DNA from: Actinomycetota bacterium
Lineage (GTDB): Bacteria; Actinomycetota; Acidimicrobiia; Acidimicrobiales; MedAcidi-G1
Direction: 5' to 3'
Assembly (NCBI GenBank): GCA_014381945.1
Contig: JACNKQ010000042.1
Span: 1 to 36,950, forward strand
Length of the DNA stretch: 36,950 nucleotides
How positions within the stretch are numbered: the first letter of the stretch is position 1; every line of letters starts with the position of its first letter. The notes beneath the pieces were generated by a model that saw nothing but the letters and a program-made list of their open reading frames with translations, was not told where the DNA came from and ran no database searches. Position numbers and translations under genes: made by a program. Shown piece by piece: positions 12,669 to 20,380 of this stretch.

Positions 12669-12712
12669 CGGCGGTCGGCGACCTGTACCGGGTGGCCCGG
12701 ACCCACTGCCCC

Positions 12713-14047
12713 ATGTCCCTCCGCTTCGGCACCGACGGCGTTCGAGCCAGGGCCGACACCGTGCTCACCGAATCGGTCGTGCGCGCCCTCGGGCGAGCCG
12801 CCGCCGGCCACCTGGGTTCCCACGAGGTCGCCATCGGCCACGACACCCGGGCCTCCGGTGAGGCGCTGGCCCGTTCGTTGGCCGAGGGTTTCCTCGAGGG
12901 TGGTGTAGGGGTACGGCACCTGGGCATGGTTCCCACGCCTGCTGTCGCCCACGCTGCGGCGACAGACGGGATCGCCGGTGCGGTCGTCTCCGCCTCGCAC
13001 AACCCCTGGACCGACAACGGCGTGAAGCTGTTCTCCGTGGGGGGTCACAAGCTCGACGATTCAGCACAGGTCGAACTCCAGGCCAGTTGGGACGAGACCC
13101 CGGAACTCGAGGCCACGGGCCGGGCGGTGCCCGACATCGAGTCCGACGACCGCTGGGCCGAGGCGGTCGCCGCTTCGGTCGAATCCGGTGCCCTGGACGG
13201 ACTCACCCTTGTCGTCGACTGCGCCAACGGTGCCATGTCGGCCGTCGCCCCCACCGTTTTCGAACGCCTGGGTGCAGGCGTCATCGTGCTCAACGCCGCT
13301 CCCGACGGCTGCAACATCAACAGGGGTTGCGGATCGATGCATCCGGAGGGCCTGCAGCGTGCAGTGTCCGACACCGGGGCCGATGCCGGGCTGGCGTTCG
13401 ACGGCGATGGCGACCGGGTCGTCGCAGTCGGTGCCGACGGTGCCCTGCTCGACGGCGACCACCTTCTGGCCGCCTGCGGAATCGACCTCCACGAGCGGGG
13501 CCTCCTGACCGGCGACACCGTTGTCGGGACGGTCATGGCGAATCTCGGCCTGCGCCGAGCCCTCGACGCAGCCGGCATCGCCTTCCACGAGACCGCCGTG
13601 GGCGACCGCTACGTCCTCGAGGCTCTCGAGTCGAACGGTTGGACACTGGGTGGAGAGCAGTCCGGCCATGTGATCTTCCGCCACCTCGCAACAACGGGCG
13701 ATGGCCTCCTCGCCGGCATCCAGGCCCTCGATGCCGCCCGACGCCGAGGTCTGGACCTCGGAGCGTGGACAACAGGCCTGGTGGTCAAGGCACCCCAGGT
13801 CCTGCGTGCCGTGACCGTTGCCGGAACCGGTGAGGCAGTGGTCGCAGCGATGGTCGAAGACATCGCCAGGGCCTCCGACCTGTTGGGCGACGAGGGCCGG
13901 GTCGTGGTACGGCCCTCCGGGACCGAATCGGTCGTCCGGGTCATGGTCGAGGCGCTCGATGCCGACCTGGCGCACCGCCTGACCGACGAACTCTGTGAGT
14001 CTGCGCAACGGATCGCCGACCGGAGCGCCGACTCGACGCAGGGGTGA
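12713..14047 (+). CDS. glmM: Phosphoglucosamine mutase
   Basis: GlmM converts glucosamine-6-phosphate to glucosamine-1-phosphate on the way to UDP-GlcNAc for the cell wall. The 444-residue protein has the start MSLRFGTDGVRA, the phosphoserine loop VVSASHNPWTDNGVKLF, the Mg-binding loop FDGDGDRVVAVG, the sugar loop GGEQSGHVIFR and the phosphate-binding VRPSGTESVVRVM. ATG 12713 is preferred because the family begins directly before FGTDG; GTG 12692 would add seven residues. It is directly followed by the glmS-like gene, the enzyme just before it in the pathway. Confidence 0.95.
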   Translation: MSLRFGTDGVRARADTVLTESVVRALGRAAAGHLGSHEVAIGHDTRASGEALARSLAEGFLEGGVGVRHLGMVPTPAVAHAAATDGIAGAVVSASHNPWTDNGVKLFSVGGHKLDDSAQVELQASWDETPELEATGRAVPDIESDDRWAEAVAASVESGALDGLTLVVDCANGAMSAVAPTVFERLGAGVIVLNAAPDGCNINRGCGSMHPEGLQRAVSDTGADAGLAFDGDGDRVVAVGADGALLDGDHLLAACGIDLHERGLLTGDTVVGTVMANLGLRRALDAAGIAFHETAVGDRYVLEALESNGWTLGGEQSGHVIFRHLATTGDGLLAGIQALDAARRRGLDLGAWTTGLVVKAPQVLRAVTVAGTGEAVVAAMVEDIARASDLLGDEGRVVVRPSGTESVVRVMVEALDADLAHRLTDELCESAQRIADRSADSTQG

Positions 14048-14114: not shown

Positions 14115-17100
14115 ATGTGCGGCATCATCGCGGTGCTCCGACGCCCCGCCACCCGCTCGGCTCCCGATGCCGACGTCGTGATCGCCCCGATCCAACGGGC
14201 TCTGGACCTGCTCGACGCCGGCGACCCTGCCAGCCTCGCCGAGGCAGCCACCTGCCTGGAGGAGGTCGACTCCCTGTTGGGCGGCGCTCCCGGGCTCGAG
14301 TCCCTCCTGGGTCACGCCGGGCTGCTCGACGCCGTCGCCGACCGGATGTCGACGGCCCGGACGAGGTTCGCTTCCGTCGAGGCGGCCATCGGCGCCCGGG
14401 TCGGAGACCGGGAGGCGGGCAACGTCGCACTCGTCCGACTCCGGGACGCCGCATGGGCGATCTCAAACGACCGCCTGGGGGCTGCTCGTGGCGTCGCTGC
14501 CATCTCCTCGACGGCAGACCCGCCCAGCCGATCCGGAACGGCGGTCCTCCTGTCGATCCAGCAGGCGCTCAGCGCTCTTGATCGCCTCGAGGTGCGCGGC
14601 CGCGATTCCGCCGGACTCCAGGTCACCCTCTGGGACCATGGCCTCGACCTGGACGATCCTGCAATCGCCAACCTGCTGGCCCAGCGGACGTCCGACATGC
14701 TCCTTCGTTCTGGGAGCGCCCGGGTGCTTCCCGGTGGGGGCCTGGTCCTGATCGTCAAGACGGCAGCCGAAATCGGCGAGTTGGGCGACAACACATCGGT
14801 ACTGCGCCGAGCCCTGGTCGGCGACCACCTCCTGGCCCTCGGCCTCACCGGTGAGTCGGTCCGGGGGTCGGTACTCGGGCACACCAGGTGGGCCAGCTTC
14901 GGGATAATCGCCGAGGCCAACGCCCATCCGCTCGACTCGACCGGCAACGACGGCGACGCACCGGGCCACCTCGTGACGGCCGTTCAAAACGGCGACGTCG
15001 ACAACCACGCCGACCTGGCCGCCACCGAACGCCTCGAGGTGCCCGATGCCATCACGACCGATGCCAAGGTCGTGCCCCTCCTGTGTGCCAGCCACCTCGG
15101 CGACGGGTTGGCTCCCGATGAGGCGTTCCGTCGGACGGTCCAGGCCTTCGAGGGCTCGCTCGCCATCGCCGCATCGTTCGGCGAAGAACCCGATCGCCTC
15201 CAACTGTCACTCCGGGGCAGCGGCCAGGCCCTGTACATCGGCCTGTCCGAAGACGCCTTCGTGGTGGCCAGCGAACCGTACGGCGTGGTCGAACTCTCCA
15301 ACCGATACGTCCGCATGGACGGCGAGTCACCGGCCGAGGCAGGCAACCCGGCGACCTGTGGGCAGCTGATCGAGTTGGACGGTTCGGCGGCCGGCACGCT
15401 GGCCGGAATGCACCGACGGGCCTTCGACGGCCGCGACCTTCCGTGTACCGACGGCGACGTCGTCCAGGCCGACATCACCACCCGTGACATCGACCGGGGC
15501 GACCATCCCCACTACCTGCTGAAGGAGATCGGCGAGTCGCCCGAGTCCGTGCGGTCCACCCTGCGGGGCCGGCTCCTCGAGGACTCCGGCACGTTGAGCG
15601 TCTCGTTGGCGCCCGAGGTGATCTCCGACTCCCTACGAGCCGACCTGGCGTCAGGGCGCATCTCGAAGGTCATCGTCATCGGCCAGGGGACGGCGGCGAT
15701 TGCAGGCCAGGCGGTGACCGGTGCAATCGATGCCGAACTCGTGGCCACGGGGATCAACGTCTCTTCCCAGCCTGCCACGGAGCTCTCCGGATTCGGACTG
15801 CGTCCCGACATGGCCGACACTCTGGTCGTCGCCATCAGCCAGTCCGGGACGACCACCGACACCAACCGCACCGTAGACCTGGTCCGCTCCCGCGGCGGCC
15901 GGGTCCTGGCAATCGTCAACCGCCGCAACAGCGACCTGACCGATCGTGCCGACGGTGTGCTCTACACCTCCGACGGACGCGACGTGGAGATGAGCGTGGC
16001 CTCCACCAAGGCCTTCTACGCGCAGGCCGTGGCAGGCTTCCTGCTCGGTGCCGCCCTGGCCGATGCCGTGGGATCTGCGGGCGCTGCCGACCGTGCCGGC
16101 GTGCTTGCCGGACTGCGCACGTTGCCCGACGCCATGGAGGAGGTCTTCGCCGGTCGGGACTGGATCGCCGAACTGGCGACCCGACATGCACCCGGGCGCC
16201 GCTACTGGGCGGTGGTCGGCAACGGCGCCAACCTCATCGCCGCACGCGAGATCCGGATCAAGTTGTCGGAGCTCTGCTACAAGTCGATCGCCGCCGACGC
16301 CACCGAGGACAAGAAGCACATCGACCTCTCCTCGGAGCCGTTGATCCTCGTCTGCGCAACCGGGCTGTCGGGTTCGACCATCGACGACGTAGCCAAGGAG
16401 GTGGCGATCTACCGCGCCCACCAGGCGGCGCCCCTGGTGGTCACGGACTCCCCCCTGAGCTATGCCGAGGCCCTCGACGTCATCGAGGTGCCGGTGGTGC
16501 ACCCCCGACTGGCCTTTGTGTTGTCGACGATGGTCGGCCACCTGTTCGGGTACGAGGCCGCCCTGGCGATAGACGCCCAGGCCCGCCCGCTCCGGGAGGC
16601 CCATGCCGCCATCGAGCAGGCAGCCGCCGGCGAACTCGACGTGTTGCCGGAGGACCCCTCGGGCGATTCACTCGTCGATGCCGTGCGCCGGCGCATCCTG
16701 CCCTGCGCCGGCCGCTTCAACGACGAGCTCCGATCGGGACGCCTGAACGGGCACCTCGAGGCGGCAACGGCGGTACGCCTGGCATCGCTGTTCCGGTATG
16801 CCCTCGGCGACGTACCCCTCGAGTCGTACCAGCGCGAGTTCGGAAGGGTCGGCACACCCGCCCTGGTCCTCGACGACCTGGCCTCGGCCCTGACCGTCGC
16901 CATCGAAGAGCTCACCCGCCCTGTCGACGCCATCAAGCACCAGGCCAAGACCGTCACGGTGGGAATCTCACGGACCGACGAGACCCTCCTCGAGGCCCGA
17001 CTCACCCGGGCTGTGCTCGACGCCGGCACCCCCCGGGACGGACTCAGCTACCGGACCCTGCGCCTCCTCCTGGCCCTCGACCCGGCGGTCGCCGAGATAA

Positions 17101-17549
17101 CCGGATTCACCCGTTACCGGCTCGACGGCGTTGAAGGTTCGACACCGACTGCGGCGATCGTCGACCGCGGCGGGGTCTCGACGGGGATCCCCTCACGCAC
17201 TGAGCGCGACCCGGCGCTGCGGGGCACCAAGCACCGGGTGGCGGTCGACCGCGAGGTGCTCGTCACCCGGGGCGCCCGCGACGACCGCACGATCGTGCTC
17301 GTGCCCGAGGTAAAGGACGCCGAGGCCGTCGGGCTCACGCTGCTCCACGTCACGACCGTCGACCGGTTGCCACCGGACACCGTGCGCAACGTCCTCGAGG
17401 GCTACCACAACCGCTATGGCGAGATCAGCGACGCTGTCTGCGAGACCGAACCCTCGTTGCGCGACGACCTGCTGGCGGCGGTCCCGATCGAGGACCTCCT
17501 CATCGACGAGGTCGGCGCCATCGCCGACCGGTTGCGCAACAGGTCCTGA
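14115..17549 (+). CDS. glmS: Enlarged glutamine--fructose-6-phosphate aminotransferase (1144 residues)
   Basis: GlmS makes glucosamine-6-phosphate from fructose-6-phosphate and glutamine; family members usually have about 600 residues. Glutaminase half: nucleophile Cys2, RGRDSAG (161-167), Arg258-Trp259 in GHTRWA, Asn292-Gly293, Asp316. Isomerase half: HYLLKEIGESPE (466 on), SQSGTTTDT (575 on), STKAF (630-634), and Glu712, Lys716, Glu719, His735, which align by spacing with E. coli Glu481, Lys485, Glu488, His504. KTVTVG (945-950) matches the GlmS C-terminal tail with its active-site Lys603. Extra material: about 130 residues between Cys2 and RGRDSAG, about 110 between His735 and Lys945, and about 195 after the tail. 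The added parts have no domain I recognise. No other glmS lies in the window, so this is probably the cell's working enzyme. Confidence 0.9.
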   Translation: MCGIIAVLRRPATRSAPDADVVIAPIQRALDLLDAGDPASLAEAATCLEEVDSLLGGAPGLESLLGHAGLLDAVADRMSTARTRFASVEAAIGARVGDREAGNVALVRLRDAAWAISNDRLGAARGVAAISSTADPPSRSGTAVLLSIQQALSALDRLEVRGRDSAGLQVTLWDHGLDLDDPAIANLLAQRTSDMLLRSGSARVLPGGGLVLIVKTAAEIGELGDNTSVLRRALVGDHLLALGLTGESVRGSVLGHTRWASFGIIAEANAHPLDSTGNDGDAPGHLVTAVQNGDVDNHADLAATERLEVPDAITTDAKVVPLLCASHLGDGLAPDEAFRRTVQAFEGSLAIAASFGEEPDRLQLSLRGSGQALYIGLSEDAFVVASEPYGVVELSNRYVRMDGESPAEAGNPATCGQLIELDGSAAGTLAGMHRRAFDGRDLPCTDGDVVQADITTRDIDRGDHPHYLLKEIGESPESVRSTLRGRLLEDSGTLSVSLAPEVISDSLRADLASGRISKVIVIGQGTAAIAGQAVTGAIDAELVATGINVSSQPATELSGFGLRPDMADTLVVAISQSGTTTDTNRTVDLVRSRGGRVLAIVNRRNSDLTDRADGVLYTSDGRDVEMSVASTKAFYAQAVAGFLLGAALADAVGSAGAADRAGVLAGLRTLPDAMEEVFAGRDWIAELATRHAPGRRYWAVVGNGANLIAAREIRIKLSELCYKSIAADATEDKKHIDLSSEPLILVCATGLSGSTIDDVAKEVAIYRAHQAAPLVVTDSPLSYAEALDVIEVPVVHPRLAFVLSTMVGHLFGYEAALAIDAQARPLREAHAAIEQAAAGELDVLPEDPSGDSLVDAVRRRILPCAGRFNDELRSGRLNGHLEAATAVRLASLFRYALGDVPLESYQREFGRVGTPALVLDDLASALTVAIEELTRPVDAIKHQAKTVTVGISRTDETLLEARLTRAVLDAGTPRDGLSYRTLRLLLALDPAVAEITGFTRYRLDGVEGSTPTAAIVDRGGVSTGIPSRTERDPALRGTKHRVAVDREVLVTRGARDDRTIVLVPEVKDAEAVGLTLLHVTTVDRLPPDTVRNVLEGYHNRYGEISDAVCETEPSLRDDLLAAVPIEDLLIDEVGAIADRLRNRS

Positions 17550-17563
17550 GCAACGGGCCCCAG

Positions 17564-17929
17564 ATGATCGGTATCGGCACGGACCTCGTCGACATCGATC
17601 GCTTCCGTCGGTCGCTCGAGCGCACACCGGGACTGCGCAAGCGCCTGTTCCGTCCGGGCGAACGCGCCTATGCCGACCAGCGGAGCGATCCCGCCGAGCG
17701 TTATGCGAGTCGGTTCGCAGCCAAGGAGGCCGCCCTCAAGGCCCTCGGCCTCGGCCTCGGCGGCATGGCCATGTACGACATCGAGGTGGTCCGGGCCGGG
17801 TCGGGAGCCCCCTCGCTGCTGCTGCACGGCGAGGCTGCCGAGACGGCTGCTGCGGCCGGCGTAACCGGATGGCTGGTCACGATCTCACACACCGACACGG
17901 TGGCCCAGGCCGTGGTCGTGGCACGCTGA
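17564..17929 (+). CDS. acpS: Holo-[acyl-carrier-protein] synthase
   Basis: AcpS transfers 4'-phosphopantetheine from CoA to a serine of acyl carrier protein. The 121-residue length is typical. Mg-binding residues are Asp7 in GIGTDLVDIDRF and Glu55 in RFAAKEAALKALGLG; the end has VTISHTDTVAQAVVV. It follows glmS by 14 bases and precedes the NAD(P)HX repair gene by 4, an order also seen in other actinobacteria. Confidence 0.95.
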   Translation: MIGIGTDLVDIDRFRRSLERTPGLRKRLFRPGERAYADQRSDPAERYASRFAAKEAALKALGLGLGGMAMYDIEVVRAGSGAPSLLLHGEAAETAAAAGVTGWLVTISHTDTVAQAVVVAR

Positions 17930-17933
17930 GGGG

Positions 17934-19286
17934 ATGCAACCGGTCGCCACACCCGAGGAGATGGCTGCCATCGACACCTCCGCTTCCGAGCCGTTCGAAG
18001 TGCTCGTCGGCCGCGCCGGTGCCGCCGTGGCCCGGGCGGCTGTCGACCTGCTGGATGGGGCCGAAGGCCGCCGGATCGTCGTGGTCGCCGGACCTGGATC
18101 GAATGGTGCCGACGGGCGCGTAGCCGCAGACCTGCTCAGCGACCTCGGGGCTGAGGTCCGGGTGCTCGATTCCGATGCGGCGTCCGCCGCACTCCCCGCC
18201 GCCGACCTCGTGATCGACGCCGCATACGGCACCGGCCTCCGGCGCCCCTATACGGCGCCGGCCACCGACTCGCCCGTGCTGGCCGTAGACCTGCCTTCCG
18301 GCATCGACGGCCTGACCGGCTGCCAACTGGGTTCCCCGGTGACCGCCGAGCGGACCGTCACCTTCGCCGCCCTCAAGCCGGGTCACCTGCTCGGGCAGGG
18401 GCCGGATCACTGCGGTGAGGTGCTGCTGGTAGACATCGGCCTCGATGTCACCTCATTGCGGACCGGACTGGTCGAGCCGTCCGATGTGGCGGGGCTGGTT
18501 CCGGCCCGGCCCCGTGATGCCCACAAGTGGGAGAGCGCCTGTTGGATCGTCGCCGGGTCGCCGGGCATGGAGGGCGCCGCCCACCTTGCGGCTCGTGCCG
18601 CCCAGCGGTCCGGTGCCGGCTACGTCCGGCTCTCGGTGCCCGGCGGAGGGTCGCTGAGTGGGGCTCCGCTCGAGGTTGTGTCCGAACCGATCCCGTCGGA
18701 CCTGACCCCGCCGGACGACCTCGACCGCTTTGCTGCGCTCGTCCTGGGTCCCGGCCTCGGCCCTGTCACCGGTGACGCCGTCCGCTCCCTGCTCGCATCC
18801 TTCCCCGGCCCGGCCGTCGTCGACGGTGACGGGCTCAACGTCCTGGGAGCCATCGACACGCCACTGCGGCATGGACCCACGGTCCTCACGCCCCACGACG
18901 GCGAGTTCGAGCGCCTTACCGGCGCACGACCGGGTGCCGACCGCCTGGCGGCCGCCCGGACCCTCGCCGTGCGGACCGGGACCGTCGTGCTCCTGAAGGG
19001 CCCCGCAACGGTCGTTGCCGCTCCCGACGGCAGGATCCTGCTGGCGGCGTCAGGCGACCAGCGACTGGCGACGGCCGGGTCGGGTGATGTCCTTGCGGGG
19101 ATCCTCGGCGCCTTCCTCGCCCGGGGCGCCGACCCCCTCGAGGCGGCTGCCGCTGCGGCCGTCGTACACGGCCTGACGGTCCGGGAGTTGCCGGCGACCG
19201 GGGTGGTCGCCGGGGACCTCGACCGGTGCCTGCCCGACCTGCTCGGGCGACTCGGCGTGGATCGGGCAGATGGGGTGCGGGCCTGA
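17934..19286 (+). CDS. nnrDE (nnr): Bifunctional NAD(P)HX epimerase / ADP-dependent dehydratase
   Basis: This fused enzyme repairs hydrated NADH and NADPH: the N-terminal YjeF_N domain (about 1-200) epimerises NAD(P)HX, the C-terminal kinase-like domain dehydrates it. N-domain features are VVAGPGSNGADGRVAADLL, a variant of the usual GxGNNGGDG, and DAAYGTGL. C-domain features are PHDGEFERLTG, VLLKGPATVVAAPDG and the nucleotide-binding ATAGSGDVLAGILGAFL. The 450-residue length is a little under the common 500. The TGA overlaps the ATG of alr. Confidence 0.93.
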   Translation: MQPVATPEEMAAIDTSASEPFEVLVGRAGAAVARAAVDLLDGAEGRRIVVVAGPGSNGADGRVAADLLSDLGAEVRVLDSDAASAALPAADLVIDAAYGTGLRRPYTAPATDSPVLAVDLPSGIDGLTGCQLGSPVTAERTVTFAALKPGHLLGQGPDHCGEVLLVDIGLDVTSLRTGLVEPSDVAGLVPARPRDAHKWESACWIVAGSPGMEGAAHLAARAAQRSGAGYVRLSVPGGGSLSGAPLEVVSEPIPSDLTPPDDLDRFAALVLGPGLGPVTGDAVRSLLASFPGPAVVDGDGLNVLGAIDTPLRHGPTVLTPHDGEFERLTGARPGADRLAAARTLAVRTGTVVLLKGPATVVAAPDGRILLAASGDQRLATAGSGDVLAGILGAFLARGADPLEAAAAAAVVHGLTVRELPATGVVAGDLDRCLPDLLGRLGVDRADGVRA

Positions 19287-20380
19287 TGCGTCCCACCTGG
19301 TGCGATGTCGACCTGGACGCCATCCGGCACAACGTGGGGGTGCTGGGCGCCCTGGCGGGGGAGGCGGAGTTGTGTGCAGTCGTCAAGGCCGATGCGTACC
19401 GGCACGGCGCCGTACCGGTCGCACGGGCGGCGGTCGAGGCCGGTGCGACCTGGTTGGGGGTAGCCCTGGTCGAGGAGGCCGCCGAGTTGCGTGCCGCAGG
19501 CCTTGCCGTACCGATCCTGGTGCTCAGCGAGCCGCATCCCGACGGCATGGCCGGCGTGGCCGCCCTGGACGGCGTGCGGACCACGGTCTACTCCGAGGCG
19601 GGCATCGACGCCCTTGCTGCGGTCGCCCCCGGGGCGCCGGTCCATCTCAAGGTCGACACCGGGATGCACCGGGTGGGGGCGGCTCCGGCCGATGTCGTCC
19701 ACCTGGCGCACAGGGTGCTCGAGTGCGACCTGGTGCTAGAGGGCGTGTTCACGCACTTCGCGGTCGCCGATGCCCCCGCCGATCCGTTCACGGCCACCCA
19801 GGTCGAGCGCTTCGACGCCGTGCTGGCGGACCTCGCCGACCACGGCGTCCATCCCGAGTTGGTCCACCTGGCGAACACAGCCGGGCTCATCACCTGTCCG
19901 GGGGCCCGACGGTCGCTGGTGCGGGCCGGTATCGGCATCTACGGCGTGGCACCTTCGCCGGAACTGGCCGCTGCCGGTGCCGACCTGGGCCTGCGGCCTG
20001 CGGCCCGCATCCGAAGCGAGGTGCGTCATGTCCACGCCGTCGAGGCGGGTGAGGGGGTCTCCTACGGACGCCGGTGGAAGGCCGGGGGGCCGACCCGCCT
20101 GGCGACGGTACCGATCGGCTATGCAGACGGTATCTGCCGGGCCTGGTGGGACGGTGGCTCGGTGCTGGTGCGTGGTCGGCGTCGGCCCATCCGCGGTGTC
20201 GTCACCATGGACCAACTGGTGGTCGAGGTGGATGGCGACGTGGCGGTCGGCGACGAAGTCGTGCTGCTGGGCCGACAGGGTGACGGGCACATAGGCGCCG
20301 ACGAGGTGGCGGCTGTGCTGGACACCATCACCTACGAGGTGTTGACGTCCCTGGCTTCCCGTGTGCCCAGGCGCTACTGA
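19286..20380 (+). CDS. alr: Alanine racemase
   Basis: Alr makes D-alanine for peptidoglycan with pyridoxal phosphate. The 364-residue protein carries the PLP lysine Lys34 in AVVKADAYRHGA and the second catalytic base Tyr260 in GVSYGRRW; RAGIGIYGVAP and VTMDQLVVEV are also typical. ATG 19286 overlaps the preceding stop and starts right before WCDVDLDAIRHN, the family start; an open frame exists 60 bases further upstream but is not conserved. With glmM and glmS it forms a cell-wall precursor block. Confidence 0.95.
   Translation: MRPTWCDVDLDAIRHNVGVLGALAGEAELCAVVKADAYRHGAVPVARAAVEAGATWLGVALVEEAAELRAAGLAVPILVLSEPHPDGMAGVAALDGVRTTVYSEAGIDALAAVAPGAPVHLKVDTGMHRVGAAPADVVHLAHRVLECDLVLEGVFTHFAVADAPADPFTATQVERFDAVLADLADHGVHPELVHLANTAGLITCPGARRSLVRAGIGIYGVAPSPELAAAGADLGLRPAARIRSEVRHVHAVEAGEGVSYGRRWKAGGPTRLATVPIGYADGICRAWWDGGSVLVRGRRRPIRGVVTMDQLVVEVDGDVAVGDEVVLLGRQGDGHIGADEVAAVLDTITYEVLTSLASRVPRRY

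Follow-up and report, generated by a model that had tools for sequence, protein, structure and literature searches.

A long, deeply diverged form of glucosamine-6-phosphate synthase in Acidimicrobiia, with a predicted PAS/GAF-like domain attached to the catalytic C-tail

GlmS, the glucosamine-6-phosphate (GlcN6P) synthase, is the enzyme by which sugar and glutamine nitrogen become committed to the cell wall. Its control differs widely among bacteria, involving the glmS ribozyme, the small RNAs (sRNAs) GlmY and GlmZ, or GlmR. In Escherichia coli, glmS is under the sRNAs GlmY and GlmZ, as stated in the accessible part of PMC4908143. According to the available portion of PMC8041777, the C-tail of E. 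coli GlmS is held back by a bridge that Arg331 forms with the terminal Glu608, and the human enzyme, GFAT-1, is inhibited by UDP-N-acetylglucosamine (UDP-GlcNAc), which binds the isomerase domain and touches the interdomain linker. Here we analyze a stretch of 36,950 nucleotides (the window; contig JACNKQ010000042.1) from an Actinomycetota bacterium of the class Acidimicrobiia, which encodes a GlmS of 1144 amino acids (aa), compared to 609 aa in E. coli. Judged by sequence, this long form is an old, deeply diverged subfamily and not a recent insertion into a local GlmS, and it stands in place of the standard enzyme in many Acidimicrobiia families. We recognized no description of a long or PAS/GAF-bearing GlmS among the papers listed by title and the start of the abstract, mostly open-access; similarly, term searches in the accessible text of a signature-indel study of Acidimicrobiia (PMC5962788; fructose-6-phosphate, glucosamine, SIS domain) and of an Ilumatobacter genome paper (PMC3910706; glmS, glucosamine) returned nothing.

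The long-form glmS gene (14115..17549, on the forward strand, as all features given below) is an open reading frame (ORF) with an ATG start and no internal stop, and its product begins with MCGI. Its residues were compared in an alignment of 40 standard GlmS (nine from the class, that of E. coli K-12, and 30 from the phylum) with 47 complete long forms, of which seven come from other classes and 40, that of the window among them, from the class. An earlier note, made from the letters of the window, had described a 1144-residue GlmS with a complete active site, and all the residues it named are found where it placed them and are invariant in 47 out of 47 long forms, namely, Cys2, Arg258, Trp259, Asn292, Gly293, Asp316, Glu712, Lys716, Glu719, His735, and Lys945; Ser575, Gln576, Ser577, Thr580, and Ser630 are invariant in the same 47 proteins. 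In the E. coli numbering, all long forms hence retain the N-terminal nucleophile (Ntn) glutaminase set Cys1, Arg73, Trp74, Asn98, Gly99, Asp123, and the isomerase set Glu481, Lys485, Glu488, His504, Lys603 with the phosphate loop SQS..T. Arg258-Trp259 (14886..14891) correspond to E. coli Arg73-Trp74, which we take to bind glutamine and gate the channel, and are present in all 47 long and all 40 standard forms. The RGRDSAG block of the glutaminase domain (aa 161–167, 14595..14615; RGYDSAG in E. coli) is invariant in the long-form alignment, while the adjoining position 160 varies.

Several positions near these residues differ from the standard enzyme. The isomerase motif Glu712-Lys716-Glu719 … His735 (16248..16319) contains KHIDL instead of KHGPL, Gly505 of the latter being replaced by Ile in 46 out of 47 long forms and by Val in one; Asn600-Leu601 is His-Gln in all 47 (HQAK for NLAK); and Ser303 is Ala in all 47, as it also is in 19 out of 40 standard GlmS. 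The long GlmS is complete and probably active.

According to the alignment, 541 residues of the long form have no counterpart in more than 90% of the 40 standard GlmS. The earlier note had listed three added regions of about 130, 110, and 195 residues, and all three are right, consisting of 123 + 11 residues before RGRDSAG, 114 residues before the C-tail, and 194 residues after KTVTVG, respectively; missing from its list were a 34-aa insert in the glutaminase domain (aa 179–212, 14649..14750) and several further small inserts of 5–12 aa. The N-terminal insert (aa 8–130 and 136–146, 14136..14552) lies inside the glutaminase domain after its first strand and is predicted to be all-helical; the second insert (aa 823–936, 16581..16922), also predicted to be helical, lies between the last core helix and the C-tail; and the C-terminal domain, below called the tail (aa 951–1144, 16965..17546), is predicted to have a PAS/GAF-like α/β fold with closing helices. 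Every one of the 47 complete long forms contains the three large blocks (116–141, 99–115, and 188–200 residues, respectively), as do 71 out of 71 complete long forms from public records; none of the 40 standard GlmS has them. In 25 members, the mean column identity rises from 44% in the N-terminal insert to 58% in the second insert and 68% in the tail. Thus, the tail, being the most conserved of the three blocks, seems to be constrained like an important domain, and the first insert only loosely.

Pfam analysis of the whole 1144-aa protein yielded two matches above the cut-offs, SIS (aa 518–641, 15666..16037) and the glutamine amidotransferase domain GATase_6. PDB profile searches gave chance-level matches for all three blocks (best E-values 0.13 for the N-terminal insert, 0.28 for the second insert, and 0.33, to a GTPase, for the tail). 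Hence the well described domain set, whose presence in the added parts the earlier note had left open, was not found by sequence in Pfam and PDB profile searches. The inserts were scanned with Pfam as parts of the window protein, and the member-by-member scan covered 25 tails, of which the window's own had no match; nine scattered families appeared at E ≤ 1, the best being DUF7124 (four out of 25 tails, E = 0.0018) and DEAH11-type KH (one out of 25, 0.0046), and the commonest, MMR_HSR1 (five out of 25, best E = 0.024). These matches were taken as chance.

The survey of GlmS length across Acidimicrobiia that the earlier note had proposed shows that the long form is present in 81 out of 198 class genomes (in 68 as a single full-length match, in 13 in partial or split form) and the standard form in 104; none carries both, and 13 carry neither, where standard means a score over the TIGR01135 cut-off and excludes weak matches, which could hide a fragment of the other form. 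Two of the 13 genomes with neither form (G192, G093) contain partial GlmS matches below the cut-off. Four genomes of the class that are 89–98% complete (G054, G181, G183, G148) have no recognizable GlmS of either form, a short glutaminase-type match being present in G181 and G148. The architecture is the same in 40 complete members from the class (1117–1167 aa, including the window), in 71 complete loci out of 80 from public records (1111–1173 aa; four identical proteins are shared with the class set), and in seven complete loci out of eight from other classes (1118–1147 aa). One long glmS (L040; G149:C1, near position 1180950) is frameshifted just after KHIDL in a two-contig assembly, which looks like an assembly indel and not a natural split.

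A scan of GTDB species contigs confirmed at least 555 relatives, and 78 out of 80 loci from these are titled Actinomycetota or its subgroups (e.g., Ilumatobacter, Microthrix, Aquihabitans), the remaining two being titled “Acidobacteria” and “bacterium.” The long GlmS of L105 (titled Acidobacteria), L107, L121, L127 (titled Bifidobacterium breve) is typical of Acidimicrobiia, and the labels of these metagenome bins are probably wrong. Among 34 pattern matches in viral contigs, none is a relative, and none of 305 matching plasmid records covers more than 80% of the query; the eight plasmid matches listed cover 59–63% of it, and seven of these are annotated as glmS.

Both forms occur in the same genomic context. 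Among 11 long-form loci of the class, picked for diversity, glmM lies upstream of glmS in ten and acpS downstream in eight, and among nine standard-form loci, rpsI and glmM are upstream in all nine and acpS is downstream in seven; in 80 long-form loci from public records, some of them ended by the contig, GlmM is matched in 68 and AcpS in 72. The shared order rpsI-glmM-glmS, usually followed by acpS, means that both forms hold the same chromosomal place; within the class, one form has thus taken the place of the other, in whichever direction, at a single locus. A separate normal glmS, which the earlier note had considered as a possibility, was not found in the window's own genome (97.5% complete), where profile searches revealed neither a second glmS nor any other SIS protein; two further TIGR01135 matches in this genome span model positions 39–200 and 1–221, that is, the glutaminase part only, and the nagB model has no match there.

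The tree of the shared core (49 rows, 24 long and 25 standard; quick method, unrooted) places all long forms on one side of a single branch with full support in the SH-like approximate likelihood ratio test (SH-aLRT), this dividing branch being very long and E. coli GlmS being flagged as a long row. The mean core identity is 63% between long forms, 52% between standard forms, and 29% between the two groups. The protein is thus not a one-off but the GlmS of many Acidimicrobiia families, which by its sequence diverged from the standard one long ago, rather than a normal GlmS to which pieces were recently added. Three standard GlmS from the window's order (L046, L048, L049) group with L051, a standard form from a different order, and are separate from five further standard GlmS of the class, so that the standard forms of the class may derive from more than one source.

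Across the phylum, a profile of the tail side (residues 700–1140) matches 32 out of 396 genomes. Of these, 22 belong to the class and nine do not, and the remaining match, in G553, is weak (E = 5.5e-5), this genome having a standard GlmS. A standard GlmS beside the long form occurs in one of the nine out-of-class genomes, G237 (G237:C155, G237:C313, L145), which has 5% contamination and may be a mixed bin. In six out of eight loci from other classes, rpsI, glmM, and acpS are absent from the neighborhood in the stretch covered, and two loci of family f53 keep some of these genes. The absence of these neighbors is seen in family f83 (L141–L143, L146, L147), where in L141 the long glmS adjoins genes of an M24 peptidase and an RtcB ligase; the f83 loci are consistent with horizontal acquisition. 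In the tree, seven out-of-class sequences fall among those of the class with modest support. Taken together with the lack of the usual neighbors, this placement suggests transfer of the long form outward from the class, as read from an unrooted tree.

The full AlphaFold2 model, built for the window protein aligned with 71 relatives, has a mean predicted local distance difference test score (pLDDT) of 89.1 and a predicted template modeling score (pTM) of 0.79, and the core of this model aligns structurally with both E. coli GlmS and human GFAT-1 at Z-scores of 41–42 over about 590 residues, so that the glutaminase and double-SIS folds have the GlmS arrangement in the predicted model. Specifically, E. 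coli GlmS (1jxa, 2j6h; TIGR01135), which shares with the long form the Ntn glutaminase, the double SIS isomerase, the catalytic residues, the C-tail K(S/T)VTV, and the locus of the standard form in sister genomes, is matched with Z-scores of 41.4–41.5 and a root mean square deviation (rmsd) of 3.8–4.2 Å over 586 residues, whereas the mean core identity (24 long forms) is only 26%, and about 540 added residues, KHIDL for KHGPL, and the terminal Glu replaced by Gly plus a 194-aa domain set the two apart. GFAT-1 (6svq, 6r4g, and others; Z-scores up to 42.5) has the same catalytic architecture and performs the GlcN6P synthase reaction under allosteric control, but its inhibition, as far as the available part of the source tells, does not run through a C-terminal domain. 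By predicted fold, residues, locus, and uniqueness in its genome, the long form is a GlmS. The structure prediction of the added regions, which the earlier note had recommended together with profile searches, yielded two helical inserts and a tail that appears PAS/GAF-like in the model.

The tail was also modeled alone (aa 951–1144, 25 rows; AlphaFold2 model mde72e22b1aa9), with pLDDT 94.2 and pTM 0.90, and its secondary structure is nearly the same as in the full model. Its best fold match in the PDB is the N-terminal segment (chain 174–360) of the large glutamate dehydrogenase of Mycobacterium smegmatis (7jsr), with Foldseek E = 1.7e-3, a template modeling (TM) score of 0.52 by query length, and VIA Z = 9.2, rmsd 4.7 Å over 163 residues including the closing helices. 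The next matches, with Z-scores of 8.0–8.7, are GAF domains and GAF-type proteins. The GAF domains of 5w10 (Lcd1), 3ci6 and 3trc (PtsP) align with VIA Z 8.4–8.7 over 79–101 residues within tail residues 1–132, but the closing helices 133–194 lie outside these matches, and the tail has no GAF match in Pfam. For the five-stranded antiparallel sheet with flanking helices that defines the PAS/GAF fold, the tail prediction is a confident one and the best Z-score is 9.2; by this predicted fold, the tail may be regarded as a PAS/GAF-like domain.

The resemblance to the dehydrogenase is claimed for the fold only. The matched segments share 12–16% identity, and in 7jsr the segment is N-terminal on another enzyme and, according to the accessible part of the source, was modeled ab initio in a 6.27 Å structure. 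For the M. smegmatis large glutamate dehydrogenase (L-GDH), the same partial source reports a PAS-type domain along with three ACT-like domains and three helical motifs, proposed to be metabolic sensors, and does not, in that part, tie the matched residues to any one of these. Homology of the tail to the regulatory segment of L-GDH180 is not established by profile–profile alignment. With hhalign, the probability was below 1% in each run; alignments were made with 14 class sequences and then with 119 tails, the latter giving a loose path colinear over the whole tail, and with 31 out of 33 L-GDH sequences the best path moved elsewhere and the colinear path was lost (the two sequences left out lack a blastp match to the class reference, and one of the earlier 14, being out of frame, was left out as well). 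Since these alignments are not significant and unstable, we limit ourselves to structural similarity. The L-GDH catalytic-domain model has no match in the window's own genome.

The point where the tail is attached is the C-tail (aa 937–950, 16923..16964), which carries Lys945. In 40 out of 40 standard GlmS the chain ends with K(S/T)VTVE, the last residue being Glu, whereas in 47 out of 47 long forms KTVTV is followed by Gly (Gly950 in the window), and the chain goes on for 194 residues, leaving the active site there as the earlier note had claimed. The column aligned to Arg331 contains Arg in all 40 standard forms and in seven out of 47 long ones. Since the alignment of this column is uncertain, only the loss of the terminal Glu is firm, and its Arg331 partner is perhaps lost.

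The terminal Glu is lost exactly where the domain is attached, and the simplest interpretation is that how freely the C-tail moves is now determined by the attached domain. The explanation we prefer, and consider marginally better than an even bet, is that the long form is a housekeeping GlcN6P synthase in which a sensor-like domain has come to control the mobile C-tail. Catalysis would proceed as in E. coli, converting L-glutamine and fructose-6-phosphate to GlcN6P and glutamate: Cys2 would free ammonia from glutamine, the ammonia would pass to the SIS domain, and Lys945 on the C-tail would close the sugar site. The new element would be the PAS/GAF-like domain covalently joined to the C-tail, whose state, depending on a bound metabolite or partner, might restrain or free the C-tail; the freedom of the latter would then set closure of the sugar site, domain docking, and channel formation. 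In this way, the tether formed in E. coli GlmS by the terminal Glu and Arg331 would be replaced by an allosteric one, and the helical inserts would probably brace the tail domain or provide a further contact in the oligomer. Mobility of the C-tail may respond to a ligand or partner, or the domain may be a fixed brace.

A stronger version is that the mobile catalytic C-tail tethers a ligand-sensing PAS/GAF-like domain, which works as an allosteric switch built into the enzyme where cell-wall precursor synthesis begins. Such a switch would be established across much of Acidimicrobiia and would be a protein-level counterpart of RNA switches, sRNAs, or GlmR; we offer this version tentatively, putting it somewhat short of an even chance. 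The suggestion of the earlier note that regulation differs and that the extra parts could sense something is in this respect reasonable, given the sensor-like fold predicted for the tail. In many members of an Actinomycetota branch, an unclassified domain appears wired to the moving part of an active site, and if this domain indeed senses a metabolite, it would represent a novel mode of control over amino-sugar synthesis and, in effect, an experiment by nature on the role of the C-tail.

A number of observations weigh against this explanation. PAS/GAF-like folds can be purely structural; no PAS or GAF model is among the nine Pfam families at E ≤ 1 on the 25 tails; no match of the tail in the PDB reaches Foldseek E < 1e-3; and VIA Z-scores of 8–9 are near the level at which the tool warns of a merely common arrangement. 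In the full model, the regions listed below pLDDT 50 are 627–629 and 937–956, the latter being the C-tail and its exit, and hence the placement of the tail on the core is not fixed by the model. Two NCBIfam GlmS models match aa 252–819 with 209.6 and 232.4 bits, against cut-offs of 418.05 and 381, respectively, the former being the glmS equivalog TIGR01135; with the score at half of the curated cut-off, equivalog models would miss the enzyme, and such genomes can look as if lacking glmS. The Arg331 column is affected by a three-residue insert in the long form, and 29 out of 47 long forms have some Arg within positions 553–565. Finally, according to the available portion of PMC8041777, neither the kinetics of human GFAT-1 nor its inhibition by UDP-GlcNAc changed when the C-tail was locked by a mutation, which weakens the idea that C-tail mobility controls the rate.

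Alternatively, the enzyme may be a housekeeping GlmS in which the three blocks form a structural scaffold, supporting another oligomer or docking of pathway enzymes, with a tail that senses no small molecule. Two of the three blocks are plain helical in the model, PAS-like domains can act solely as dimer interfaces, the many invariant charged residues in the tail suit an interface as well as a pocket, and GlmM, a conceivable docking partner, is encoded next door in most public-record loci. The adjacency does not explain the extra domains, however, as glmM is also upstream of the standard glmS in all nine loci, and the loss of the terminal Glu at the attachment point in 47 out of 47 long forms suggests coupling to the active site and not decoration. 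We lean against the scaffold, while considering it a real contender.

A GlmS-like enzyme of changed specificity, acting on another keto-sugar phosphate or amino donor and not serving as the GlcN6P synthase of the cell, seems improbable. The low identity to standard GlmS, the KHIDL, HQAK, and Ala303 replacements, and the lack of a GlmU match above the cut-off in the window's own genome all agree with it; against it, a standard GlmS above the cut-off is found in none of the 81 long-form genomes of the class and in only one out of nine outside it. Moreover, the long form in the class occupies the standard glmS locus with glmM upstream, its phosphate-loop and catalytic residues are invariant, and Ala303 is shared with almost half of the standard GlmS. 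An assembly artefact, a chance ORF, a frame fusion of neighboring genes, or a decayed pseudogene could be invoked for the unusual length and for the one frameshifted relative (G149), but is ruled out by complete long ORFs whose length, blocks, and residues are conserved in 40 class, 71 public-record, and seven other-class loci.

Two genomes of one family (G245, G206) have ORFs of 1061 and 1081 aa around a standard GlmS; in G245, the extra part is an open frame upstream of a 611-aa GlmS.

Rfam identified no family in the window, and hence no glmS ribozyme at the gathering score. For GlmU, no match above the family cut-off was found in the window's own genome, the best being 56 bits for an ORF at G000:C18:8410-8958; the gene may lie in a stretch that the assembly lacks, or the steps of GlmU may be non-standard, too. 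The glmS locus of the window contains rplM, rpsI, and glmM upstream, and acpS, a NAD(P)HX repair gene, and alr downstream. The phosphoglucosamine mutase gene glmM (12692..14047), directly upstream of glmS, has TIGR01455 as its best model, with a score of 438.9 bits just below the cut-off of 447.55. The holo-acyl carrier protein synthase gene acpS (17564..17929) begins 14 bases downstream of glmS and is followed by the NAD(P)HX repair enzyme gene of the nnrD/nnrE type (17934..19286) and the alanine racemase gene alr (19226..20380 as the ORF is listed; the true start may be later). Such a neighborhood plausibly fits genes of cell-wall precursor synthesis.

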